DNA of 64,000 nt from Desulfarculus sp. (lineage in GTDB: Bacteria > Desulfobacterota > Desulfarculia > Desulfarculales > Desulfarculaceae), in assembly GCA_003605055.1 (NCBI GenBank), contig QZKP01000072.1:1-64000 (forward strand), in the 5' to 3' direction. The notes under the pieces are model-generated. The model searched no databases and was not told the origin of the DNA. It worked only from the letters and a program-made list of their open reading frames with translations. Position numbers and translations under genes: made by a program. Shown one piece after another: positions 3,982 through 43,920 of the stretch; within the stretch, counting starts at the first letter, position 1, and every line of letters starts with the position of its first letter.

Positions 3982-4665
3982 CTACAGGGGCCCCACCGCC
4001 ACCTCATCGTCACTGTGGCGGATGATGCGGCCCTCCACCAGATAGATCACCTCCTCGGCGATGTTGGTGCACTCGTCGCCGATGCGTTCCAGGTGGCGGC
4101 TGCACAGGATCAGGTCCACCCCCCGCCGCAGGTAGCGCTCCTCGCAGGACATGGACTGGATCATCTCCTCCAGGAAGTCGCGGTTGAACTCGTCCAGCTC
4201 GTCGTCGCGCCGCCACACCGCCGTGGCCAACTGCACGTTCTGGTGGGCGAAGGCGTCCAGGCACTCCTTGTTCATCTCGCGGGCGATCTTGCACATGAGC
4301 ATGAGCACCGGCGGCAGGTCGCCGCCGCCGATCTGGGCCAGGGACTTGACGCGGTCGCAGAGGTTCACCGCCTGGTCGCCGATGCGCTCCACGTGGCCGG
4401 TGATCTTGATCACCGCCGAAAGGAAGCGCAGGTCCACGGCCACCGGCTGCTGGGTGGCCAACAGGGTGATGCAGCGCTCCTCGATCTCGTTCTGCATCAG
4501 GTCTATGCGCCGGTCGGCGGTGATGACCTTCTCGGCCAGCTCGGTGTCCAGGCGGGCCAGGGCCTCGCTGGCCTCGTACACCGCACGTTCCACCAGGCCG
4601 GCCATCTTGAGCAGGTCCTGCTTGACCTGCTGCATCTGACGTTGAAAATGCGACTGTCCGGGCAT
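3982..4665 (-). CDS. phoU: Phosphate transport system regulator PhoU
   Basis: FQRQMQQVKQDLLKMAGLVERAV...; next to pstB. Confidence 0.93.
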   Translation of the reverse strand: MPGQSHFQRQMQQVKQDLLKMAGLVERAVYEASEALARLDTELAEKVITADRRIDLMQNEIEERCITLLATQQPVAVDLRFLSAVIKITGHVERIGDQAVNLCDRVKSLAQIGGGDLPPVLMLMCKIAREMNKECLDAFAHQNVQLATAVWRRDDELDEFNRDFLEEMIQSMSCEERYLRRGVDLILCSRHLERIGDECTNIAEEVIYLVEGRIIRHSDDEVAVGPL

Positions 4666-4680
4666 GTTTTGGTTCTCCGC

Positions 4681-5498
<818 letters not shown>

Positions 5499-5505
<7 letters not shown>

Positions 5506-6356
5506 TTCTTATGCCTGCGCATGCGGCTGCGGATGACGATGGCGATCAGGCTCAGCCCCAGCACCAGGCTGATCAGGACCAGCACCGTGCCGTACTGCAG
5601 AGGCCGCGTCTGGGCGATGTGCGTGCCGGCGGTGGCCAACACGTAGATATGATAAGGCAGGGCCATGACTTGGTCCAGGGGCGAGCTGGGCAGGCGCAGG
5701 GTGAAGAAGGTGGCCGCGGTGAACATGATGGGCGCCGTTTCTCCGGCCGCCCGGCCCACGCCCAAAATGGAGCCGGTGAGGATGCCGGGCAGGGCCGCGG
5801 GCAGCACCACCTTGCGGATGGTCTGCCAGCGAGTGGCGCCCAGGCCCAGGGAGGCCTCTCGGAAGGTGCCCGGCACCTGCCTGAGCGCCTCCTCGGCCGC
5901 GCCGATCACCGTGGGCAGGATCAAAAGCCCCAGGGTCAATGAGCCGGCGGCCAGGCTGATGCCCAGCTTGAAGTAGCCCACGAACAGGGCCAGGCCGAAC
6001 AGGCCGAAGACCACGCTGGGCACTCCGGCCAGGTTGGCTATGCCCAGGCGCACCAGGCGCAGCACCCGCCCCTCGGTGGCGTACTCGCTCAGGTACACGG
6101 CCGCGGCCACTCCCAGGGGCAGGGCCACCAGGACCGCCCCCAGGGTGAGATAAAGGGTGCCCATCAGGGCCGGGAAGATGCCGCCCTTGGTCATGGAGTC
6201 CCGCGGGGCGGCGGTCAAGAACTCCCAACTTATGGCCCCGGCCCCCTGAATCAGCACGTAGAGCAGGATGCCGCCCAGGGCCCCCAGCACCACCAGCACG
6301 GCCAGGCGGAAAACCAGGAAGGCCATCTCCTGCCGGGCCCGCCGCCAAAAGAGCAT
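5499..6356 (-). CDS. pstA: Phosphate ABC transporter permease PstA
   Basis: [18 protein letters not shown]... with [31 protein letters not shown]; position in pst cluster. Confidence 0.9.
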
Positions 6357-6370
6357 GCGCCGGTCCTGGC

Positions 6371-7342
6371 TCACAGGGTGGCCGCTCCCTTCTGCTGGAA
6401 GCGGCGGCTGAACCAGGCCGCCACCAGGTTGAAGGCCAGGGTCATCAAAAACAGCACCATGCCGATGGCGAACAGGGCGTGATAGTGCTCGCTGCCAAAG
6501 GGGGTCTCGCCCATCTCCGCGGCGATGCTGGCCGGCAGGGGCCGCACCGAGTCGAAGATGGAGCCGGGTATCTGGGCCGCGCCGCCGGCCACCATCAACA
6601 CCACCATGGTCTCGCCCATGGCCCGGCTCATGCCCAGGATCACCCCGGTGCCGATGCCCGACAGGGCGCCGGGAAGCTGCACCCGGGTCAGGGTCTCCCA
6701 GCGGGTGGCGCCCAGGGCCAGGGAGGCCTCGTTTAGTTCGCGGGGCACCGCGTGCAGGGCGTCCTCGCTGATGCTGGCGATGGTGGGAATGGCCATCAGG
6801 GCCAGCATCAGGGAGGCGTTGAACACGTTCAGGCCGGTGGGGATGTCCCACCACTGCTGCATCAGCGGGGCCAGCACCACCATGCCCACGAAGCCCAGCA
6901 CCACCGAGGGCAGGCTGGCCAACAGCTCCACGGCCGGCTTGAGTATCTCCCGGGTGCGGTCGCCGGCCACCTCGGCCAGGTACAAGGCCGTGCCCACGCC
7001 CAGGGGCACGGCGATGAGCGAGGAAAGCAGGGTGACCGCCGCCGAGCCCACGATCAGGGGCAGGACGCCGAAATCCGGCGGGTCGTAGGTGGGGTACCAG
7101 GCGGTGCCCAGCAGGAAGTCGCTAACGCTGACCGTGCGGAACAGGCCGATCCCCTCGGCGAACAGGAACAGCACGATCAAGGTCATGACCACCAGCGAAA
7201 ACAGGCCCGCGGCCACGAAGAAGCGGCGGATGATCACCTCGCGCTCGGTGCTGGTCCTCTTGCGCCGGTTCATGATGCCAGCGCTCGTCAGGCGCCCCAG
7301 GCCCTTGTGGGCCAGGGCCTGGCCGCTAAACGGATTCAGCAT
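6371..7342 (-). CDS. pstC: Phosphate ABC transporter permease PstC
   Basis: LAEVAGDRTREILKPAVELLASLPSVVLGFVG; start may be the internal MNRRKR. Confidence 0.9.
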   Translation of the reverse strand: MLNPFSGQALAHKGLGRLTSAGIMNRRKRTSTEREVIIRRFFVAAGLFSLVVMTLIVLFLFAEGIGLFRTVSVSDFLLGTAWYPTYDPPDFGVLPLIVGSAAVTLLSSLIAVPLGVGTALYLAEVAGDRTREILKPAVELLASLPSVVLGFVGMVVLAPLMQQWWDIPTGLNVFNASLMLALMAIPTIASISEDALHAVPRELNEASLALGATRWETLTRVQLPGALSGIGTGVILGMSRAMGETMVVLMVAGGAAQIPGSIFDSVRPLPASIAAEMGETPFGSEHYHALFAIGMVLFLMTLAFNLVAAWFSRRFQQKGAATL

Positions 7343-18430: not shown

Positions 18431-19648
18431 TTACTTCTTAGATAGCCAGGGAGGCAGAATATACTCGCTGGTCTTCATCTCCTCCGGCCAGACCACTTCC
18501 CGGCTGCCGTCTTTCCGCCACTGCACCATGGGGGTGACCCGGTACCCGCTGCCGTACTTGGCATTGTGCAGGTCGGTGAACACCCATCGGCCGGAAACCC
18601 CGATCAGGTCGGTATTCTCAAGCGCCGGCACCAATTTGTCCGGATCGGTGGACTGGGCGTTTTCCACCGCGTTCTTATAGATATACAAGGCGTCATAGGT
18701 GTAGCCGGAGGTGTATCCCGGGGCCTCGTTGAAGCGCTTTACATATTCATCATAAAAGGCAGTGGATTTAGGGGTGAGGGCGACCCGGAAGGAGCCCATG
18801 GGCATGATGGTCTCAGAAGTCGCCTTGCCTCCGCAGTCCTTCCAATAGCGGTCGGACACGCCGGAACCCGAGACCCCGCCTATCATGGGCCCTTGGAGGT
18901 CATACCACTGCTTGATGTATATGGCCCCGTCCACATGGGATGAAATCTCATAAATAAAGTCCGCCTTGGCGTCCATGATTTTGGTCAGGATGGGGGTGAA
19001 GTCCTTGGTCTCGGTGTCAAAGAATTCGACACAGACCACTTCCAGGCCGTTTTTCTTGAAAAACTCTTCGGCCGCCTTCACCATGCCCTGAGTCCAAAGG
19101 GCCTTTTCCGCCATTATGGCTATTCGTTTAGCCCCGTACTTTTTGACTGGCAAGTCCATAACGAACTTGTGTAATGCCTCGGATAATTCGTGGGCTTGAT
19201 GCGTAACACGGAACCAATACTTAAATTTCGATTTATCCGAACCGAGTTTCTTGCTAAGGGCTTCCGATGAGGCGCCCGTGGAAATGAAGGGCACTTTGTA
19301 GCGCGCCATCTGATCCATCACCGCCGAGGCAACCCCCGAGGAAGAGGTGCCTATTATCAGGTTGCATTTGTCTTGCAATGCCAACTTCTTATAGGCAGTT
19401 GCCCCCACCTGGGGCTTGTATTCCGTGTTGGCCTCAATCAACTCGATCTGTTTCCCCATTATCCCGCCCTTGGCGTTAATCTGGTCCGCCGCCAATTTGG
19501 CCGCCTTCAAAAGGCTCTCGCCGGGAGAGGTTTTAAAGGGCGCTAAGACCCCAATTTTGATTGTATCCGCGGCCAGGCCCACTCCGGACCACATCACAGT
19601 CATAAGGGCCATAGTGACCAGCAAAACCTTCCAAACCTCTTTTGTCAT
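18431..19648 (-). CDS. Branched-chain-amino-acid-type ABC transporter substrate-binding protein
   Basis: Signal peptide; IKIGVLAPFKTSPGESLLKAAKLAADQINAKGGIMGKQIELI. Confidence 0.88.
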   Translation of the reverse strand: MTKEVWKVLLVTMALMTVMWSGVGLAADTIKIGVLAPFKTSPGESLLKAAKLAADQINAKGGIMGKQIELIEANTEYKPQVGATAYKKLALQDKCNLIIGTSSSGVASAVMDQMARYKVPFISTGASSEALSKKLGSDKSKFKYWFRVTHQAHELSEALHKFVMDLPVKKYGAKRIAIMAEKALWTQGMVKAAEEFFKKNGLEVVCVEFFDTETKDFTPILTKIMDAKADFIYEISSHVDGAIYIKQWYDLQGPMIGGVSGSGVSDRYWKDCGGKATSETIMPMGSFRVALTPKSTAFYDEYVKRFNEAPGYTSGYTYDALYIYKNAVENAQSTDPDKLVPALENTDLIGVSGRWVFTDLHNAKYGSGYRVTPMVQWRKDGSREVVWPEEMKTSEYILPPWLSKK

Positions 19649-19708
19649 GGCACCCTCCTTATTAGGATTCCGGTTTTGTGACTGCGGTTGCAGACACCGC
19701 CCATGCGT

Positions 19709-20419
19709 TTAAGCCATCCCCAGATAGGCCTCCAATATGGATTTTTTGCTCAGCATCTCCTGGCTCGGCCCCGCATCCACCACCTTTCCCTCTTCCAAAA
19801 CATAGGCGAAGCGGCTTCTTTCCAGGGCTAGAGCGGCGTTTTGCTCCACTAAGAGAACCGTCACCCCCTCCTGGTTGAGCATGTCGATTACATCGAAGAG
19901 GGTAGCCACCACCATGGGGGCAAGGCCGAATGAGGGCTCATCCAGAGTCAGCAGCCGCGGTCGCCCCATGATGGCCCGGCCAAAGGTCAGCATCTGCTGC
20001 TCCCCGCCTGACAGGGTCCTGGCTAATTGATTGATACGTTCGGACAAAACTGGAAAATAGTTTAAAACACGATCTAAATCCCGATTGATCTCCTGCCGGT
20101 CTTTCCTAAGATAAGCACCCATACGCAGATTCTGCAGGACAGTCATGTCCGGGAAAAGCAGCCTTTCTTCCGGGCAATGAATCACTCCGCGTTCAACGCA
20201 TCCTTTAGGATTCAGCTTGGAAATTTCTTGGCCGCAGAAGTGAATGCTACCTTTGGTCATTACCATTCTGGAAATAGCACATAAAATGGTGGTTTTCCCT
20301 GCGCCATTACTGCCGATCACCGACACATAGTCATGCTCTGTGACCTCCAAGCTTACATTGTGTAAGACAGGAGTTCCATGGTAGAAAGCCTGCAAATTTT
20401 CGAGCTTAAGGAATTTCAA
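19709..20419 (-). CDS. livF: LivF-type ABC transporter ATP-binding protein
   Basis: GSNGAGKTTILCAISRM; LSGGEQQMLTFGRAIMGRPRLLTLDEPSFGLAP. Confidence 0.9.
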   Translation of the reverse strand: MKFLKLENLQAFYHGTPVLHNVSLEVTEHDYVSVIGSNGAGKTTILCAISRMVMTKGSIHFCGQEISKLNPKGCVERGVIHCPEERLLFPDMTVLQNLRMGAYLRKDRQEINRDLDRVLNYFPVLSERINQLARTLSGGEQQMLTFGRAIMGRPRLLTLDEPSFGLAPMVVATLFDVIDMLNQEGVTVLLVEQNAALALERSRFAYVLEEGKVVDAGPSQEMLSKKSILEAYLGMA

Positions 20420-21155
20420 TTTTTTCGCCTTCCTTGCCTAAATAGGCTTTGGTAACCTCAGGATTTTGCACTACTTCCTGTGGTGTGCCTTCAGCAATTT
20501 TCTGCCCGAAATTCACGACCACCACTTTTTGAACCAGCTTCATCAACTCTCTGAGGCGGTGCTCAATAATCACTACGGTAAGGCCATCTTGGTTGAGATT
20601 TTTAACTGTGGCTGAGATTTTGTTTATCTCAAAATGAGAAAGGCCTGAAAAAGGTTCATCCAGTAGCAATACTTTGGGATAAACCATCAAGGCCCTGGCG
20701 ATGTCGAGCAGCCTTAACTGTCCCTGATTCAAGTTATCGACTGTGTCTTGCAGTTTGTCCGCAAGGCTCAATTGGCCCGCAACTTTATAAATTCTCTCCT
20801 GCACCTCGGTTTGGTCGAATGAATTATTTTTCACCCGGCGGCAAAAGGTTGGAATCTGCAGGGCTTCGATCACTTTCATGCCAAAGAAAGGCCGGACAAG
20901 CTGCCAGGTTCGGCTCAAGCCCAGATTTACAATCTGGTATGGTTTTTTCCGGCCCAGATTTTGACCGTCAAGTAATACAGACCCACCATCAAGCCTGGTG
21001 AAACCGGTCAAACAGTTGAATGCGGTTGTTTTGCCTGCGCCGTTGGGGCCAATAATGCCTAGTATTTCTGCGGAATGAACCTCAAAGCTCAATCCGGAAA
21101 GAGCCAGCAATCCGTCAAAGCGTTTCTTCATCTCTATTGCTTGCAGTTGGATCAT
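20406..21155 (-). CDS. livG: LivG-type ABC transporter ATP-binding protein
   Basis: GPNGAGKTTAFNCLTGF; LNQGQLRLLDIARALMVYPKVLLLDEPFSGLS. Confidence 0.9.
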   Translation of the reverse strand: MIQLQAIEMKKRFDGLLALSGLSFEVHSAEILGIIGPNGAGKTTAFNCLTGFTRLDGGSVLLDGQNLGRKKPYQIVNLGLSRTWQLVRPFFGMKVIEALQIPTFCRRVKNNSFDQTEVQERIYKVAGQLSLADKLQDTVDNLNQGQLRLLDIARALMVYPKVLLLDEPFSGLSHFEINKISATVKNLNQDGLTVVIIEHRLRELMKLVQKVVVVNFGQKIAEGTPQEVVQNPEVTKAYLGKEGEKIEIP

Positions 21156-22126
21156 CCGGTTCTCCTCCGGCCAAGCAAAAGAAATGAGAGGGTTTTTGAT
21201 TTTTTCAGGATCTGGAGATTAAAAATGCCATGAGGAGCCAGGTAGACAAGCAGGATCAGAATGCCGCTGTATATGACGATCCGGTACCCTTCAACCACCC
21301 TTAGGTAATCATTTAAAAGGTGCAAGCTGATGGCGCCAATCAACGGACCCACTATGGTACCCATGCCCCCGATGATGGCCAAAAGAACGATAATGACCGA
21401 GATATACCCGGATAACATGGTAGGACCGATCTGCATCTGAGTATGCGCGAACAGACCGCCCCCTATGCCGCCCAAAAATCCGCTGAGCGCGAAAGTCTCG
21501 ATCTTGTGATATGCGGTGTTGATCCCGCAGCATTGGGCAACGTTCTCGTCTGCCCGGATGGCCTTGAGAATGTGGCCATGCCGGGAACCTGCATACCCCC
21601 TGAGTAACAGGTAGACTATGGTGGTAATTCCCCAAACAATCAGAAAATCATAGCGGGGGTCCGGGGTAAGGTTTCCTAATCCGGAGATCCCTTCTTCGCC
21701 GCCTGTGTACTGGTGTAGCAGGTAAGAGGTCTTATACAGGATTGCAGCCACGGCCATAGTGACCATTGCAAAATATGGTCCTTTTAGACGCAGCGTTAGA
21801 TATCCGATTAAAATGCCGACCAACCCGGTCACCAAGGCACCAATGGTTATGGTCAGATATGGCGGGAGTCCCAGATGGAGGTTTGCGAGCCCTGAAATAT
21901 ATCCGGCCCCACCCACGAAAAGGGCAAAGCCAAAATTCAACTCATGGGTGTAGCCGGTCAGGATGTCCCAGCTCATGGTAAAAATTGCGTAAATGGCCGC
22001 TAACATCATGACTTCTATGTAGAAATAGTTGTCAGACATCAAACCGAAGAGGAATCCCGCAGCCAATATCGACAAAGCGGCCGGCGATTCATTTCGGAAA
22101 AGCACCAAAACCTGTCTCTTCATCAT
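21152..22126 (-). CDS. livM: LivM-type ABC transporter permease
   Basis: Multi-TM; IRADENVAQCCGINTAYHKIETFALSGFLGGIGGGLFAH. Confidence 0.88.
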   Translation of the reverse strand: MMKRQVLVLFRNESPAALSILAAGFLFGLMSDNYFYIEVMMLAAIYAIFTMSWDILTGYTHELNFGFALFVGGAGYISGLANLHLGLPPYLTITIGALVTGLVGILIGYLTLRLKGPYFAMVTMAVAAILYKTSYLLHQYTGGEEGISGLGNLTPDPRYDFLIVWGITTIVYLLLRGYAGSRHGHILKAIRADENVAQCCGINTAYHKIETFALSGFLGGIGGGLFAHTQMQIGPTMLSGYISVIIVLLAIIGGMGTIVGPLIGAISLHLLNDYLRVVEGYRIVIYSGILILLVYLAPHGIFNLQILKKSKTLSFLLLGRRRTG

Positions 22127-22995
22127 CGATTCATCCTGTCCTTTTTGCCAAGGATCCCAGAGGGTCTGAAGACTAGGACCAATACAATCAATACGAGTGC
22201 AACCATTTCACTTAGGTGTTCGCTGAACATGAAGCAGGTGAAAACCTCGGCATAACCCAGGAGAAAAGACGCTATGACCGCCCCCAGGATTGAACCCATT
22301 CCGCCGAGAATGGCGATGGCAAAGGCTTTGATTAATGGGAAGAGCCACATTTCAGGGACCACAGAAGATATGGGCGCAACCATTACCCCCGCGGTTGCAG
22401 CCATGGAAGCGCTGAGGCCGTAAGTGACGATGAGTGCCCGGTCCGCATTGACCCCCATCAAAATGGCACCGTCTCTCTGTTGGGCGACAGCGTCAATCCC
22501 CTGTCCCATCCTGGTCTTTTTTAAAAAGAACCATAGAGAGGGCAAAATAACCAAGGCCATGGGTAGCAGGAGCAGTTGTTGATTCAGCACCTTGACGCTT
22601 AAAATGGATGCAGATCCTTCAATGAGGCTGGGGACGGACGAGCCGGACACGCCAAACAACAAGGCCATGATTTCGCTGACGAACAACGCCAGAGCCAGGG
22701 TCATTACCATTACATAAGTTAAGGACTCAACATGCTTACGGAGCAGAATGGAGTAGACAAGGCAGGAAAAAAGGGCCACCACACCGATTGCGCATATTAT
22801 GGAGAGCAAAAGCCAGGCCGTGGAGCTGCCTTGAAATACCAAGGAATAAAAAATGTAGGTCATGTATGCGCCCAGCATGTAGTAGGTCCCATGGGCCAGG
22901 TTCAAGATACCTCCCACGCTGAACACCAGCACGAATCCAACGGCAATGACTGAATAAAGGGCTCCGCGCGTTGCACCTAAGATTATTATTTCCAT
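22123..22995 (-). CDS. livH: LivH-type ABC transporter permease
   Basis: GATRGALYSVIAVGFVLVFSVGGILNLAHGTYYMLGAY; start probably MEIIILGATRG. Confidence 0.9.
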   Translation of the reverse strand: MEIIILGATRGALYSVIAVGFVLVFSVGGILNLAHGTYYMLGAYMTYIFYSLVFQGSSTAWLLLSIICAIGVVALFSCLVYSILLRKHVESLTYVMVMTLALALFVSEIMALLFGVSGSSVPSLIEGSASILSVKVLNQQLLLLPMALVILPSLWFFLKKTRMGQGIDAVAQQRDGAILMGVNADRALIVTYGLSASMAATAGVMVAPISSVVPEMWLFPLIKAFAIAILGGMGSILGAVIASFLLGYAEVFTCFMFSEHLSEMVALVLIVLVLVFRPSGILGKKDRMNR

Positions 22996-23117
22996 ACAGG
23001 CTTTCCGTAGTGTTCCGCTTGAGTTGCTAACCTGAATATTGGTTTTTTGTTTGTTTGGAGAGTCGATCGAATATAGAATTATACTCAAATTATTGTCATA
23101 ATGTATCTGATTTCTAG

Positions 23118-23145
23118 TCTATAAAAAAGTCTTTACGGCAGTCAA
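23118..23145 (-). promoter_or_regulatory. Candidate sigma70-type promoter for the liv/catabolic cluster
   Basis: Minus strand TTGACT-N16-TATAGA about 120 bp upstream of livH. Confidence 0.45.
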
Positions 23146-23316
23146 GTGTTTTTTTACCGCTTTTCCGTCACGAAGCCGCATCAATCAACATATTGATATA
23201 TAACTGTTTATTTAATATTGCTAGGTTATGGTTGCTAGGCCGCCTTTCAGACTCGCACTTGACAATCTAGCCGGTACGGTGTTTGCTGTAAGAACATAGT
23301 TCGATATCAACCACAT

Positions 23317-24513
23317 GTGAAAGTAGATCAGGCAGTGGCGCAAACTGGAACGAGAGAATCAATCCTGAAAAATGCCGAGGTGCTTGTTTCAGATAATGGG
23401 ATTCAAAACGTCACCATTTCCGAAATAGCAAAACGAACCGGTGTGGCCGATTCGGTGATTTACCATTACTTCAAGAACAAGGAGGACTTGGTATTCTCCA
23501 TTGCTAAAAGCCATTTTAGAAATGCTTACAATGAGTTACATGATCAGCTAGAAGGAATTCTGGAGCCTGTCAGCAAGCTCAGCAAAATGATCTGGTACCA
23601 CTTAAGGTATGGTCAAACCCACTACAATTACCCCCGCATCTGGTTGTTCGAGTGCCGGGCTAACCGGAGTTTTTACAAGCACAGCGCCTACCAGGCCGTG
23701 CGCAAATATGCCGAAGTTCTTCTGAGCATCCTGCAGGAAGGCGTGAAACAGGGCAGCTTTCGCAACGATGTCACCATGCGGTTGGTCAGAGAGCTGATCT
23801 TCGGCGCCATGGATTGGGAAATACTGCAAGGGCTGGCAACTCCATCGGAGCCTTACCAACTATCTCATATTCAGGAAATTATGGCGCTGATCCTGCCCAT
23901 GATCGAGACTCCCCCTCGAAAGCTGGCCGAGAACAATGACAAGGCGAGCCGGATAGTGGAGGCTGCCGAGCAAATGTTCTCCCAGTGCGGCTATAAAAAC
24001 TCCGGGATCAAGAAAATCGCAAGGTTAGCCAACGTGGCGGAAGGCACCGTGTACGAGCACTTCAAAAACAAAGAGGAACTACTATTTTATATACCCAAGC
24101 TGAGATGGACCGAGCATTTCAATTCGATCACCGAGGTTTTTGAGGTCAAAACGCCCATAAAAAAACTGGCTCGTTTTATTCAGCACCATTTCATGCTGAT
24201 CCTCACCCAGCCCATGTTCATAAAAACCTTCCTGCTGGATTTACAATTAAATCCAAGATTTTACGAAACAGAAGCCTTTGCAATCTTTCAAGATTACTGC
24301 TGTATTGTAGACCAAATTCTGGAAGCGGGAAAAATCGATGGAAGCGTGCGTGAATCCGTGGATACGGATAAGTTCAAAAATCTACTATTCGGGGGATTCA
24401 ACCACCTTGCGCTGCGATGGCTAATCCTGAAACCCGGTCAAAAAACCGACCGCTTGGCTGAAATGGATGAAACCATAAAGCTACTAACCCGAGCAGTTAT
24501 CTATAACCCTTGA
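23317..24513 (+). CDS. Double TetR-family transcriptional regulator (two DNA-binding domains in one chain)
   Basis: TetR HTH-like segments in both halves: VTISEIAKRTGVADSVIYHYFKNKEDLVFSIAKS and SGIKKIARLANVAEGTVYEHFKNKEELLFYIPKL; GTG start. Confidence 0.88.
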   Translation: MKVDQAVAQTGTRESILKNAEVLVSDNGIQNVTISEIAKRTGVADSVIYHYFKNKEDLVFSIAKSHFRNAYNELHDQLEGILEPVSKLSKMIWYHLRYGQTHYNYPRIWLFECRANRSFYKHSAYQAVRKYAEVLLSILQEGVKQGSFRNDVTMRLVRELIFGAMDWEILQGLATPSEPYQLSHIQEIMALILPMIETPPRKLAENNDKASRIVEAAEQMFSQCGYKNSGIKKIARLANVAEGTVYEHFKNKEELLFYIPKLRWTEHFNSITEVFEVKTPIKKLARFIQHHFMLILTQPMFIKTFLLDLQLNPRFYETEAFAIFQDYCCIVDQILEAGKIDGSVRESVDTDKFKNLLFGGFNHLALRWLILKPGQKTDRLAEMDETIKLLTRAVIYNP

Positions 24514-24832
24514 GGTCAGAATTGACCTGCCCCCAGCTAGTGTGTCAGCAGATTCGGGGGCTTTGGCAACTGGCCAAGCATGGTGAAATTTAATTAATTT
24601 ATAATTACAGATTGTTACGATTAATAATTCGTCCAGGTTATGAACAACGCCTATCCAAAAGTGAAGCGCAGCGCGCTTTTGCTGTTGACAGCCTCAACAA
24701 AAAAATAGAATATAACTCATTTCGTCATTACAATAATATTCCATTCAGCTATGCTCGAATGAGCTTAAGAGTCTCACCCCCTTGTAAATTAACCCCGTTG
24801 GATCATCACCGGCTGATTGGAGGATCCCAGTC

Positions 24833-24952
24833 ATGACCAAGCACACCGTATCGATTGTGCGCTATAACACGCCGGGAGAATCACTGCGCCGCGTCGTAGA
24901 ATCGGCTGGTGGATTCGGCGCAGCTAATGTCAAAAGTTGTGTTTCGGATTAG
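24833..24952 (+). pseudogene. 5' fragment of a DUF362-like gene truncated at the IS256 end
   Basis: GGAGG RBS then MTKHTVSIVRYNTPGESLRRVVESAGGFGAA, running into the IS terminal repeat and a stop. Confidence 0.6.
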
Positions 24953-26202
24953 GCGGCCTTCCGTTCTTCCCTGACACCATCCACGAATCTGATCCCTTCG
25001 ATTACCTCCGCCAAGCGTTGTGATCCGTCCAGGCGGCGCCATTTCTTCTGGGCGCTCAGGCAGAGCCTGAAAACCATGGTCAGGATGGTCTGCCTGGAGC
25101 AGCAGTTCTTGGTCCTGTAGGTCCGCTGGCGCACCGTGGCAAAGGTGGACTCGATGGGGTTGCTGGTCCGGATGTGCTTCCAATGCTCAGCCGGAAAATC
25201 ATAGAAGGCCAAGAGGTCCTCCCGGTCCTTGTCCAGGCAGCCGGCGGCCTTGGGGTATTTGGCACCGTAGGCATCCAGGAAAAAATCAAAGGCCCTCTCG
25301 GCTTCGGCCCTGGTCTCGGCCATCCATATCTGGTGGAGGTGAGCCTTGGCTCTTTCCTGCGTTCCCTTGGGCAGCTTGTTGAGCACGTTGGCTGTCTTGT
25401 GCACCCAGCAGCGTTGGCGGCGGACATTGGAATATACCTGGGGCAGGGCCTTCCAGAATCCCAAGGCGCCGTCACCTACTGCCAGCTTGGGAGAAATCAC
25501 CACGCCCCGGCGTTTGAGGTCTAAAAGAAGTTCCTTCCAGGACTGCTCACTCTCCCGGTAGCCATCCCATAGGCCCACCAGCTCTTTCCTGCCCCGCTCA
25601 TCGGCCCCGATGATCACCAGGATGCATTGTTTGTCTTCTTCCAGGCGCACGTTGAAATAAACCCCGTCAGCCCAGAAGTACACATAACGTTTCTTGGAAA
25701 GATCCCGGCCCTGCCAGGCCCGAAGCTCATCTTTCCATATATCCTTGAGACGGCCGATGGTCGCAGGTGACAAGCCGGGAGCATCGGGATCCAGCAGCGC
25801 GGCCAGGGCCTCGCTGAAATCCCCGCTGGAAATCCCCTTGAGATACAGCCAGGGGATCAGCTCCTCCAGGCTCTTGGTGCGCCGAAGGTACGGGGGCAGT
25901 ATCTTGGAGGAGAAGCGAATCCGTCCACCGGCCCCACCGCCCGTATCGCGCACCCGGGGCATCTTAACCTTCACTGGCCCCATCCCGGTTTGAATCTCTC
26001 GCTGGGGCAAGTGCCCGTTGCGGACCAGGCGCTGAAGACCGGCCGAATTGCGGGCGTCGGCGTGGCCGGCCAAGAAAGCCTCGACCTCCGCCTCCACCGC
26101 CGTGGCCAACATCCGCTGCGCACCATCCCTGAGCAACAAGGTCAATTGATCCTCGAAACTCTGCCGTGACTTCTGTAGCTCGACTACGTTAACATTGCTC
26201 AT
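24949..26202 (-). CDS. IS256-family transposase
   Basis: YVYFWADGVYFNVR, CWVHKTANVLNKLPK, HIRTSNPIESTFATVRQRT. Confidence 0.93.
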   Translation of the reverse strand: MSNVNVVELQKSRQSFEDQLTLLLRDGAQRMLATAVEAEVEAFLAGHADARNSAGLQRLVRNGHLPQREIQTGMGPVKVKMPRVRDTGGGAGGRIRFSSKILPPYLRRTKSLEELIPWLYLKGISSGDFSEALAALLDPDAPGLSPATIGRLKDIWKDELRAWQGRDLSKKRYVYFWADGVYFNVRLEEDKQCILVIIGADERGRKELVGLWDGYRESEQSWKELLLDLKRRGVVISPKLAVGDGALGFWKALPQVYSNVRRQRCWVHKTANVLNKLPKGTQERAKAHLHQIWMAETRAEAERAFDFFLDAYGAKYPKAAGCLDKDREDLLAFYDFPAEHWKHIRTSNPIESTFATVRQRTYRTKNCCSRQTILTMVFRLCLSAQKKWRRLDGSQRLAEVIEGIRFVDGVREERKAA

Positions 26203-40737: not shown

Positions 40738-41130
40738 TCACTCCAGGGGCCACTGGCCGCGCTCCATGAGCACCTCTTTGAGCACGGTCAGGGCCTGGTT
40801 CACCACCGGCATGCCGGCGTAGACCCCCACCTGGAAGATGGCCTCGGCCACGTCCTGGGGCGCGCAGCCCACGTTGAGCGCGCCCCAGATGTGCAGGCGC
40901 AGCTCGTCCGTGCGCTCCAGGGCCGTGAGCGCGGCCACGGCCACCAACTGCCGGGTGGGGTGCGGCAGCTTTTCGCGGGCGTACATCTGGCCGGTGATGA
41001 ACAGGCTTAGGTCCAGGGCCAGGTCCTTGTCAAAGCTCTTCCACAGGTCGTAGGGGCGGTCCCAGGGGTAGCCGTCGAAGTAGAGCTTGGCCGTGGCGCC
41101 GGTCTTTTTCTTCAGGTCGTTGGTGTCCAT
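40738..41130 (-). CDS. Carboxymuconolactone decarboxylase (AhpD-like) family protein
   Basis: TRQLVAVAALTALERTDELRLHIWGALNVGCAPQDVAEAIFQVGVYAGMP. Confidence 0.85.
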   Translation of the reverse strand: MDTNDLKKKTGATAKLYFDGYPWDRPYDLWKSFDKDLALDLSLFITGQMYAREKLPHPTRQLVAVAALTALERTDELRLHIWGALNVGCAPQDVAEAIFQVGVYAGMPVVNQALTVLKEVLMERGQWPLE

Positions 41131-41145
41131 GAGTTTCCTTTGGTG

Positions 41146-43035
41146 CTATTTGCCCTGACAATTCTTACAGCTATAGACGATAGAACCGTAGGGGTTGCTA
41201 GGGTTGCCGATAATGATGCTGCTGAAAGGTACAAGCTCGTGGCAAGAGCTACAGCGAATGGTTACTGGCTCCCCGGCCACTGACGGCAAAGTGAACAATA
41301 ATCCCAAGTCCGCGGGGATTATTTTTTTATTCTTTCCTACATCTTCCATACTCAATAACTGTGCGACCTGAAAACGGAAGTCCCCTATCTCGGCACTCCA
41401 CTCTGCCAGTATGAACAATTGAGCTTTAGTATCCTTAATAATTTGATGGGCCCCCCGATATCCGAGGTGATGTGTATTTTCTAACGGATGCTCATAAGAA
41501 AAAATGTCATTTTTATCCGTTTTACTGAAGTGGGCGATAATAGCTTGGCAATCACGCAGTTCCTCTGCTAGATAGCTAGTCCATCCGGTATCCGATGTTA
41601 TCCCTAGCTTGAAGATTGTTTCAGCACAGCTATCATCATTAAGGAATTCCATGGCCAACCCAACAGAACCCTTACAGTTATGCTGCGTTGCAAAAGGATG
41701 GACTTTAATATGAATGCCCACATCCCTGAGTTTATTGTTAATGGAATCTTTATACATTTTTTTTAACAAAAAACAATTGTCTTCCCCAACTACCTTGGCT
41801 ATTTCATCTTCCTTAGCGAAATGTGTTTGTTGATCCATCATTATAATAACTTGTTTTTTCACTCGCAACTTATTTTGGGATTGCAGAATCGACTTGTTTT
41901 CTCTAAGCATATCCACAATAGCGTCAAGATCATGAGCGTGATCTATGTGGCAATGGGTGACAATAATTGCATCAATATCGTCTAAGTGTCTATTATAGTC
42001 ATGAAAGTTGTTCCGAAAATCAATGCCGGGATCGATAACAATCCCCTTCTCTTTCCACCATATAAAATAACCACCGCCCACAATATGCTGTATATTCTTT
42101 AACTTGGAGTCTTTTTTTGACATCAGCGGCAGATTGGAACTCCATGCCTTTAGACTTAGAAAATAATTTGTTGGGGGTGGGGGAGGCAGTGATAGTGTAA
42201 GCCGTTCTCGCTCGGGTGGCCGATCACTTGCAGGAACAACGTGTATTGCATACTCTTTTGCCGCTTCTAATTTTGCTTCTAATATTTGCCCAACTTGAGT
42301 AGCCAAACTAACAATTTTTATTTGCTGATCCTCATCCCATACGGCTTGTCTGATCAGGCGATTTACCACCCTAAAAAGAAGCTCAGTTTCAATTAGGCTT
42401 TCCTTAAGGCTGTCGGTTCCTTTACCTTTCTGCTTCTCTTTACTTATAAGACGCTCTAGTAGCTGCAGAAAAGGGACCCCGTTAGCTGCTTGGAAAAAAG
42501 CCTTTGCTTCTTTGAAACTCTCTCCTGCTGCTTTGTGGTCGCCACTATGAGAATATGCTTCCCCCAAATTAATTTTTGCTATCCCTGGGTTACTAAGGGT
42601 ATTTTCATTTAAAGCTTTTTTAAAGTAATCTATAGCATCGCTATATTTTCCCATTTTCATATAAACAAGACCAACCTGGTTGTAAGCATCCCCTAACCTG
42701 TGATACTTTTCATTCCTGCAGGCGGCTAGACAACTTTCAAGTGCTTGCCAGGGACGATCTATCATTAAATGACAACTACCTATGTTGACGTCACAATCCT
42801 CAGGCCTCTCATAGCCTGCTTCCTTGGCATTTTTGAAGCATGTTATTGCATCCTCGAAATTTCCTAGTTTGACTTGGATTTTCCCCTGGAGAAAATAAGT
42901 TTTCCCAAGAATTTTAGGACGCTTGCAACTCAAGGCTTTTCGTGCGTACTTCTGAGCCTCTTTAAAGTGATTTTTGTTGAAGGCTAATTCGGCACAACTA
43001 TATAGTGCTCTTTCCGTTGGTGTTTTTTTGGGCAT
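41146..43035 (-). CDS. TPR-repeat / metallo-beta-lactamase-fold / C-terminal zinc-ribbon protein of unknown function
   Basis: N-terminal TPR helices; IIVTHCHIDHAHDLDAIVDML; GITSDTGWTS; ILAEWS; C-terminal CSSC...CKNC; distinctly AT-rich. Confidence 0.85.
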   Translation of the reverse strand: MPKKTPTERALYSCAELAFNKNHFKEAQKYARKALSCKRPKILGKTYFLQGKIQVKLGNFEDAITCFKNAKEAGYERPEDCDVNIGSCHLMIDRPWQALESCLAACRNEKYHRLGDAYNQVGLVYMKMGKYSDAIDYFKKALNENTLSNPGIAKINLGEAYSHSGDHKAAGESFKEAKAFFQAANGVPFLQLLERLISKEKQKGKGTDSLKESLIETELLFRVVNRLIRQAVWDEDQQIKIVSLATQVGQILEAKLEAAKEYAIHVVPASDRPPERERLTLSLPPPPPTNYFLSLKAWSSNLPLMSKKDSKLKNIQHIVGGGYFIWWKEKGIVIDPGIDFRNNFHDYNRHLDDIDAIIVTHCHIDHAHDLDAIVDMLRENKSILQSQNKLRVKKQVIIMMDQQTHFAKEDEIAKVVGEDNCFLLKKMYKDSINNKLRDVGIHIKVHPFATQHNCKGSVGLAMEFLNDDSCAETIFKLGITSDTGWTSYLAEELRDCQAIIAHFSKTDKNDIFSYEHPLENTHHLGYRGAHQIIKDTKAQLFILAEWSAEIGDFRFQVAQLLSMEDVGKNKKIIPADLGLLFTLPSVAGEPVTIRCSSCHELVPFSSIIIGNPSNPYGSIVYSCKNCQGK

Positions 43036-43059
43036 CTTTCCCCCCCTTTCTTTTCTCCT

Positions 43060-43470
43060 CTACCGCGCGGAATCTTCCACCGCCGCCAGCGCCGCCTGCA
43101 CCTGCTCCAGCTCGGTCTCGTGATCCAAATCGAGCAGGCAGCGCACCTGCTCGGCGTCGCAGGCCAGGCAGGCGGCCAGCTCGCTATGGCTCAGGCCCCG
43201 CGCGCGCATGGCCTGGTACAGGCCCAGCTTGAGGCACAGGCGCTGGGGCAGCTCCACCAGCCGCTGGCCCGGTTTGCAGGCCGAGGGCCGGGGCACCTCC
43301 AGGCCGTGGTCCATCAGCCCCGACAGCGCCACCAGCAGGGCGTCCTGCATCCAGTGCAGGGCTGCGGCCTCGTCGCGGCCCAGGGTCAGGGCGCTGGGCA
43401 CGTCCGGGGCCCTGGCTATGACGCCGCCCTGGCCGTCCGGCGTCAGGTCCACGGGATAGGCCAGCCGCAT
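43060..43470 (-). CDS. hicB: HicB-like antitoxin with C-terminal HTH
   Basis: MRLAYPVDLTPDGQGGVIARAPDVPSALTLGRDEAAALHWMQDALLVAL; directly follows hicA. Confidence 0.8.
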   Translation of the reverse strand: MRLAYPVDLTPDGQGGVIARAPDVPSALTLGRDEAAALHWMQDALLVALSGLMDHGLEVPRPSACKPGQRLVELPQRLCLKLGLYQAMRARGLSHSELAACLACDAEQVRCLLDLDHETELEQVQAALAAVEDSAR

Positions 43471-43472
43471 GG

Positions 43473-43676
43473 CTAGAGCACCTGCGCCAACTCGAGCCCC
43501 AGTTGCTTGACCACCAGGGTCTTCAGGAAATCGGGGCTGAGTTCGTGATCGGAGTGGATGGGTATGGTGGTCTGGCGGCCGTGGTATTTGGCCAGCACGT
43601 GCCCCCCCTTGCCGCGGTCGGTGATGATGCTGACCCCGGCCCTCCTGAGCAGGTGCACAAACTGCCTTTCCTTCAC
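43473..43676 (-). CDS. hicA: HicA-like mRNA interferase toxin
   Basis: KERQFVHLLRRAGVSIITDRGKGGHVLAKYHGRQTTIPIHSDHELSPDFLKTLVVKQLGL. Confidence 0.78.
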   Translation of the reverse strand: MKERQFVHLLRRAGVSIITDRGKGGHVLAKYHGRQTTIPIHSDHELSPDFLKTLVVKQLGLELAQVL

Positions 43677-43731
43677 TGGCCACCCCCTCGGGCGCGGACT
43701 GCAACCGCGCTGAAGGCCTAAGCCGCCGCCC

Positions 43732-43920
43732 CTACAGCGAGCTCTGTATCTTGCACTCGTGACACCCGCAGTGTGGGCAGGCCACGTCCTCGAGCATCTG
43801 GCGTCCGTGGCCGCTGTGCTCCTCGGGCAGGATGCGCTGCACGTAGGCCTTGAAGCCCCGGCCGCAGTCCGGGCACAGGGCGTCCACCTCCACCTTTTCC
43901 TCGTCGTCGCGCTGGGCCAT
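43732..43920 (-). CDS. Small double zinc-knuckle protein
   Basis: CPDCGRGFKAY...CPHCGCHECKIQSSL. Confidence 0.55.
   Translation of the reverse strand: MAQRDDEEKVEVDALCPDCGRGFKAYVQRILPEEHSGHGRQMLEDVACPHCGCHECKIQSSL

Follow-up and report, generated by a model that had tools for sequence, protein, structure and literature searches.

Introduction

RNase Z, an enzyme with the metallo-beta-lactamase (MBL) fold, has tRNA precursors as its substrate. Other phosphodiesterases of this fold act on cyclic nucleotides: YhfI prefers cAMP and cGMP, and Apyc1, an anti-Pycsar phosphodiesterase, degrades cCMP and cUMP (PMC9117128). Several bacterial immune systems have recently been found to share MBL-fold nucleases as effectors, always encoded by a separate gene beside a protease (PMC12799240). 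These gated MBL pro-nucleases occur in Hachiman, AVAST, Lamassu, DRT and canu loci, and a defence role is proven for MBL effectors that are paired with trypsin-like or caspase-like proteases (PMC12799240). Precedents also exist for single-protein defence systems located outside islands and for a phosphodiesterase-type effector, DS-8 (PMC13092281).

Here we analyse a gene that joins TPR repeats to an MBL domain in one polypeptide, found in a 64,000-nucleotide stretch of Desulfarculus DNA (the whole stretch is called the window below). TPRs are found in many non-defence proteins, and one family of TPR sensors, TPR-S (PF20308), owes its name to conflict systems. A TPR-MBL single-gene system was not found described in the open-access literature. 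The gene belongs to a rare, distinct and mobile family that is known from the one bacterial phylum scanned and is apparently undescribed.

Results

Gene, composition and neighbours

The gene occupies window positions 41146-43035 on the minus strand and encodes 629 amino acids from an ATG start without internal stops, and a polypurine, ribosome-binding-like stretch precedes the ATG. Its GC content is 41%, compared with ~67% in the surroundings, and its GC at third codon positions (GC3) is 40%, compared with 93% for hicB, 88% for hicA, 95% for the AhpD-like gene and 95% for a carboxyltransferase gene nearby. The shift in composition coincides sharply with both ends of the gene. The hicA, hicB-like, zinc-ribbon and AhpD-like genes lie on the same strand. 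A hicB-like antitoxin gene of native GC (43060-43470) ends 24 bp before the ATG and is preceded by hicA (43473-43676) and a small zinc-ribbon gene (43732-43920), and an AhpD-like gene (carboxymuconolactone decarboxylase, CMD; PF02627, E 7.7e-17; 40738-41130) begins 15 bp 3′ of the TPR-MBL gene. The earlier note on this DNA, made from its letters, had described an AT-rich gene in GC-rich surroundings at these two short spacings, and both descriptions are borne out. It had also spoken of a HicAB-like pair. This label is fair, as hicA is a genuine HicA (PF07927, E 2.9e-7) and hicB is a weak match to HicB, for which PF15919 gives 16.5 bits where its cut-off is 27, but both genes are neighbours only, and a partnership was not supported (see below).

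Domain structure of the window protein

Both main parts of the protein exceed Pfam cut-offs, with E 3.2e-19 for TPR_1 and E 9e-12 for Lactamase_B_2 (PF12706). In an AlphaFold2 model built from the family alignment, five TPRs and the MBL core are modelled with confidence, a small beta ribbon spans residues 592-623, and helices of low confidence connect these parts. When the MBL-plus-ribbon half was modelled alone, the pTM was 0.88. The N-terminal TPR array (residues 8-183, 42487-43014, minus strand like all features of this gene) matches Pfam TPR_1, TPR_2 and TPR_8 and the structures of CTPR and MamA, has a pLDDT mostly >90, and is presumed to be the sensor or protein-binding part. It is followed by the low-confidence linker helices (residues 189-264, 42244-42471) and by the MBL core (residues 290-582, 41290-42168), which has the family motif W-S-S...P...GGGY...DPG. 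The core carries the HCHIDH metal motif (residues 361-366, 41938-41955), TSDTG (residues 480-484, 41584-41598) and the segment from H523-L-G to E545 (41401-41469). The C-terminal ribbon (residues 595-626, 41158-41253) has the cysteine motifs CSSC (595-598) and CKNC (623-626). Open reading frame, Pfam and model thus confirm the architecture of TPR, MBL and CSSC/CKNC parts first read from the letters. The zinc ribbon, which the note had included in its layout, is not a defining part: its CxxC pairs are intact in the window protein, its sister L043 and L047, and are reduced or lost in most other relatives. A Pfam scan found no NTPase domain in the window protein, and hence not the STAND NTPase that marks AVAST/STAND defence.

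The MBL core resembles RNase Z-class phosphodiesterases

In Foldseek searches with both models, the MBL core matched the Bacillus anthracis ELAC homologue 1zkp, YhfI, Apyc1 and an MBL arylsulfatase, with YhfI and Apyc1 at the top and PNGM-1, PhnP and RNase Z/ELAC2 among further matches. Matches to the RNase Z/ELAC/YhfI/PhnP class reached E ~1e-12 and TM 0.77-0.80 on the target. The protein has the features that mark the RNase Z or class II phosphodiesterase fold, namely an MBL fold, HxHxDH, the motif III His and the motif IV Asp. RNase J comes no higher than ranks 48-50, where its rmsd is 11-15, and Pfam found no beta-CASP domain in the window protein, so an RNase J or beta-CASP identity was rejected. 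RNase Z proper was also rejected, because TIGR02651 gave 24 bits against a cut-off of 293 and a Glu stands at motif V throughout the family. Judging from the models, the core has an RNase Z/YhfI/Apyc1-like phosphodiesterase fold that is neither RNase J-like nor ComEC-like. The question about the MBL core that the earlier note had left to structure prediction and Foldseek is therefore settled for the RNase Z/class II phosphodiesterase branch, and its term "MBL nuclease" stands at the level of this fold class only. By profile search, the closest solved sequence is the MBL-type arylsulfatase 8gyg (E 1.7e-13). Foldseek against viral structures matched only the TPR part.

Residues H361, H363, D365, H366, H452, D482, H523 and E545 are unchanged in all 20 family members, and this invariance of every catalytic position shows that the enzyme is under selection. 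H523 and E545 were assigned by hhalign of the family to L001, an ordinary MBL hydrolase. In this alignment, H523 falls on the His at the start of the "GHxx" helix, which is the RNase Z HST motif, and E545 falls on the His that is the final metal ligand of motif V, a change from His to Glu in 20/20 members. By this alignment, the family appears to retain an RNase Z-type site in which the last ligand His is replaced by Glu, with E545 as a putative metal ligand. Such an altered metal site yields a sharp biochemical prediction. S300, G320-322, D335-P336-G337 and E545 are invariants specific to the family, W298 is present in all but one member, and an N-terminal W-N-S motif is common to its members. 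The family therefore shares with RNase Z, ELAC, YhfI and PhnP (PF12706) the fold, HxHxDH, the motif III His, the motif IV Asp and the HST-type His, but differs from them in the motif V Glu, the extra W-N-S...GGGY motif, the large N-terminal TPR or other domains and the C-terminal ribbon.

A small and discrete family

A protein search followed by a profile search of 396 genomes of the phylum found five relatives beyond the window gene (6/396, 1.5%). In a Desulfovibrio-like class, 14 of 297 genomes were positive (~5%), 13 of these being new. One further member lies on a viral contig (a provirus) and is the sole true member among the viral contigs scanned. Neither the plasmid records nor 50,697 phage records contained a match to the TPR-MBL protein. 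The family thus comprises 19 relatives and the window protein, 20 in total, with lengths of 414-1197 aa. In a second scan of the phylum, made with a 20-row family profile, its members score 315-462 bits, whereas the best proteins outside the family reach ~50-55 bits and are ordinary MBLs of 250-320 aa; this gap separates the family sharply. The family tree has long branches and was used only for close groups within the Desulfovibrio-like class and for the sister pair of the window protein and L043 (support 98/95).

One MBL module is joined to exchangeable N-termini across the family. TPR repeats were found in 11 of the 19 members scanned, L047 and L081-L084 have N-termini that are of other kinds or unassigned, and L044 and L046 are short. 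The sister protein L043/L004 also matches the conflict-type TPR-S (PF20308, E 5.1e-12), whereas the window protein does not match it at E 0.001 and matches ordinary TPR models instead.

Genomic settings of the members

In 13 of 20 loci every other called gene is richer in GC than the family gene, and in 16 of 20 at most one is poorer. Most members are lone AT-rich genes, and many stand co-directionally inside housekeeping operons (liv, cobalamin, trp, RND efflux). The surroundings of most members are of the housekeeping kind and lack defence genes up to 10 kb away. No neighbours recur across the 20 loci except between close species, and HicAB, whose recurrence among homologues the earlier note had proposed to survey, was found in only two.

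Conflict-type neighbours occur in a minority of loci, which we give as a list of cases and not as an enrichment. L048, on the viral contig, adjoins a tyrosine integrase. L076 adjoins DarTG and prophage-type genes. In L044 (12341-17292), the MBL gene is part of an AT-rich cluster together with genes for an HSP90-like ATPase, an Mrr-type nuclease and a DpdB homologue (E 1.5e-37); this cluster is possibly a multi-gene defence locus that employs a family MBL without TPR. L081 adjoins integrases and two large genes, and L082 adjoins a 770-aa gene, with a candidate defence gene of the SIR2 type (PDC-S25, E 1.7e-159) farther off.

We also observed that large AT-rich genes without Pfam matches precede the family members in L081 (5474-8943) and L082 (11371-13680). 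The L082 gene bears, by eye, an HEVSH (HExxH-like) motif and could encode a protease partner.

A recently acquired gene in a variable slot

The TPR-MBL gene is present in one of the 64 genomes of the window's class and is absent from all eight genomes of the same genus. The flanking gene order is retained in seven of these eight (loci L107-L113), so that the contents of the slot bordered by the zinc-ribbon and AhpD-like genes (41131-43731 in the window) can be read directly. Six of the seven have both border genes, and G049 has no zinc-ribbon gene. The slot is empty (~130 bp) in G045 and G051; in G047 and G052 it holds a nucleotidyltransferase gene (PF01909) whose partner looks like HEPN, and there is a single AT-rich gene in G046 (355 aa), G049 (232 aa) and G050 (248 aa, opposite strand). 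In the window genome, the slot contains hicAB and the TPR-MBL gene. Integrases or clear repeats were not found at the slot borders, where direct repeats are just short and weak. Composition, absence from the 63 other genomes of the class, two empty sites and five alternative insertions together strongly support the TPR-MBL gene being a recently acquired foreign insertion at a small hotspot, in line with the recent acquisition proposed earlier from codon usage.

The three AT-rich slot genes (L111 2339-3403, L108 1868-2563 and L110 11549-12292) have no PADLOC hits and no Pfam matches above cut-off; they are candidates for conflict genes.

hicB read as a feature of sites of gene turnover

Using tblastn over the loci, no HicAB was detected beside 18 of the 20 family genes. 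The second case is the unrelated locus L045, where the family gene has trpA on one side and, 12 bp away on the other, a hicB gene (PF15919, E 2.7e-26), in the order opposite to that in the window. In G439, a genome from the genus of the L045 host, the same interval contains two AT-rich genes, one of them encoding 361 aa, together with a decayed hicB and a partial second copy of the 3′ end of trpA. The hicB remnant there adjoins a different AT-rich gene, which indicates that hicB marks the site, and given its opposite order and native composition hicB is read as a feature of the sites and not as a partner. In both the window slot and the L045 slot, the TPR-MBL gene is one among alternative AT-rich single genes at sites of turnover. 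A conserved HicAB linkage was accordingly rejected, with only 2/20 loci and opposite orders.

Around the trpA 3′ end hotspot itself (L118 of G439, 4450-6530, compared with L045, 8609-12600), the AT-rich single genes are 361 and 252 aa long.

Discussion

We regard a horizontally moving, single-gene defence protein that combines sensor and effector as the likeliest function of the TPR-MBL protein, and we hold this reading with middling confidence. The family has a defined domain make-up, an intact metal site, exchangeable N-termini, lone-gene mobility, hotspot insertions and an occurrence in a provirus. A discrete and patchy family, an invariant active site, swapped N-termini, low-GC lone genes, slots with alternative contents and conflict-type company argue for defence. 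The reading is weakened by the housekeeping surroundings of most members, by the frequency of TPRs in non-defence proteins, and by the PADLOC scan of the window protein, in which no defence model matched apart from TPR models of a generic kind and MBL signatures that were very weak. The suggestion of a defence or stress effector is plausible, its basis being the mobility of the gene, the exchange of N-termini and defence-type genes beside some members.

In such a protein, the TPR superhelix would bind a trigger, probably a phage or mobile-element protein or peptide, or a host protein altered by infection. Binding would alter the oligomeric state (clustering) or release the C-terminal MBL domain. 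This domain, a presumptive two-metal phosphodiesterase of the RNase Z/YhfI/Apyc1 class, would then cleave nucleic acid or a nucleotide and thereby halt the cell or the invader. We infer the anti-phage role, the trigger binding by the TPR part and nucleic acid as the substrate. By analogy, the family may work broadly like the gated nucleases, as a restrained MBL hydrolase freed upon infection.

The main rival is a TPR-regulated phosphodiesterase of cyclic or modified nucleotides, acting in signalling or as counter-defence on mobile elements that blunts host cyclic-nucleotide immunity. It is possible because the best structural matches include cyclic-nucleotide phosphodiesterases: YhfI and Apyc1, which lead the fold matches, both hydrolyse cyclic nucleotides (PMC9117128), and the L048 gene sits beside an integrase on a viral contig. 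Apyc1 shares with the family the fold class, HxHxDH and an occurrence on mobile elements, but it is small, single-domain and without TPR, whereas family members are 414-1197 aa long with large N-terminal parts; its motif V also differs, and the family's Glu in place of His speaks against this rival. Members are, moreover, mostly chromosomal, with none in the phage records, and we consider this rival unlikely. Ranked after it, and slightly less probable, is an acquired accessory hydrolase, of sulfatase or phosphatase type for example, that would serve in stress or nutrition outside genetic conflict. The arylsulfatase 8gyg as closest solved sequence and the many co-directional members in or next to housekeeping operons are consistent with this. 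Metabolic neighbours do not recur across loci, however, and genes that spread very patchily, as lone AT-rich insertions and with exchangeable N-termini, look more like conflict genes than like a metabolic trait.

That the protein is a HamM/Avs1a/CanC-type gated pro-nuclease, which a partner protease would activate, is improbable. Pairs of MBL effector and protease are proven in defence (PMC12799240), an ill-modelled and probably disordered loop (residues 302-319, pLDDT <50) lies inside the MBL domain, and the HEVSH motif occurs in the gene beside L082. The protein bearing this motif has no Pfam peptidase match, though, and next to the window gene we found hicAB and the AhpD-like gene but no protease gene. 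HamM, Avs1a, LmuA-linked and CanC proteins also are MBL effector modules with varied partners in conflict loci (PMC12799240), but they are ComEC-like, encoded by separate genes and paired with proteases, whereas the family MBL is fused to its own N-terminal domain and usually has no partner. The PADLOC MBL models PDC-M48B, RTasMBL and LmuA do not match the window protein. A member of PDC-M48B (ComEC-type) aligns to the family over just 52 columns around the metal motif (hhalign), and a genome scan with PDC-M48B found mostly ComEC-like proteins of 800-1000 aa and did not mark the TPR-MBL family. Judged through these related PADLOC families, and with an RNase Z/YhfI/Apyc1-like rather than ComEC-like fold, a known gated nuclease was rejected. 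Least probable of all, and very much so, is that the MBL protein is a third component of a HicAB toxin-antitoxin locus. The close spacing to hicB in the window and in L045 favours it, but the other 18 loci are without HicAB, the gene order is reversed between the two, the window hicAB is native in GC while the MBL gene is not, and G439 has another gene beside its hicB remnant.

Returning to the single-gene defence reading, a more specific form of it can be proposed tentatively: a new Desulfobacterota-type mobile immune family in which interchangeable sensors are combined with a Glu-variant RNase Z-like phosphodiesterase that is switched on by infection, with neither a partner protease nor a nucleotide signal. 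If true, a one-gene form derived from another MBL branch would represent a second route by which MBL enzymes entered immunity. It would also be lone cargo with swappable sensors, located outside defence islands and overlooked by island-based surveys.

A second and larger AT-rich stretch is found in the window at 18434-26202 (GC 46-54%). It contains genes for a branched-chain amino-acid ABC transporter and a TetR-type regulator, with an adjoining transposase-like gene (24952-26202), and is likely another acquired block.
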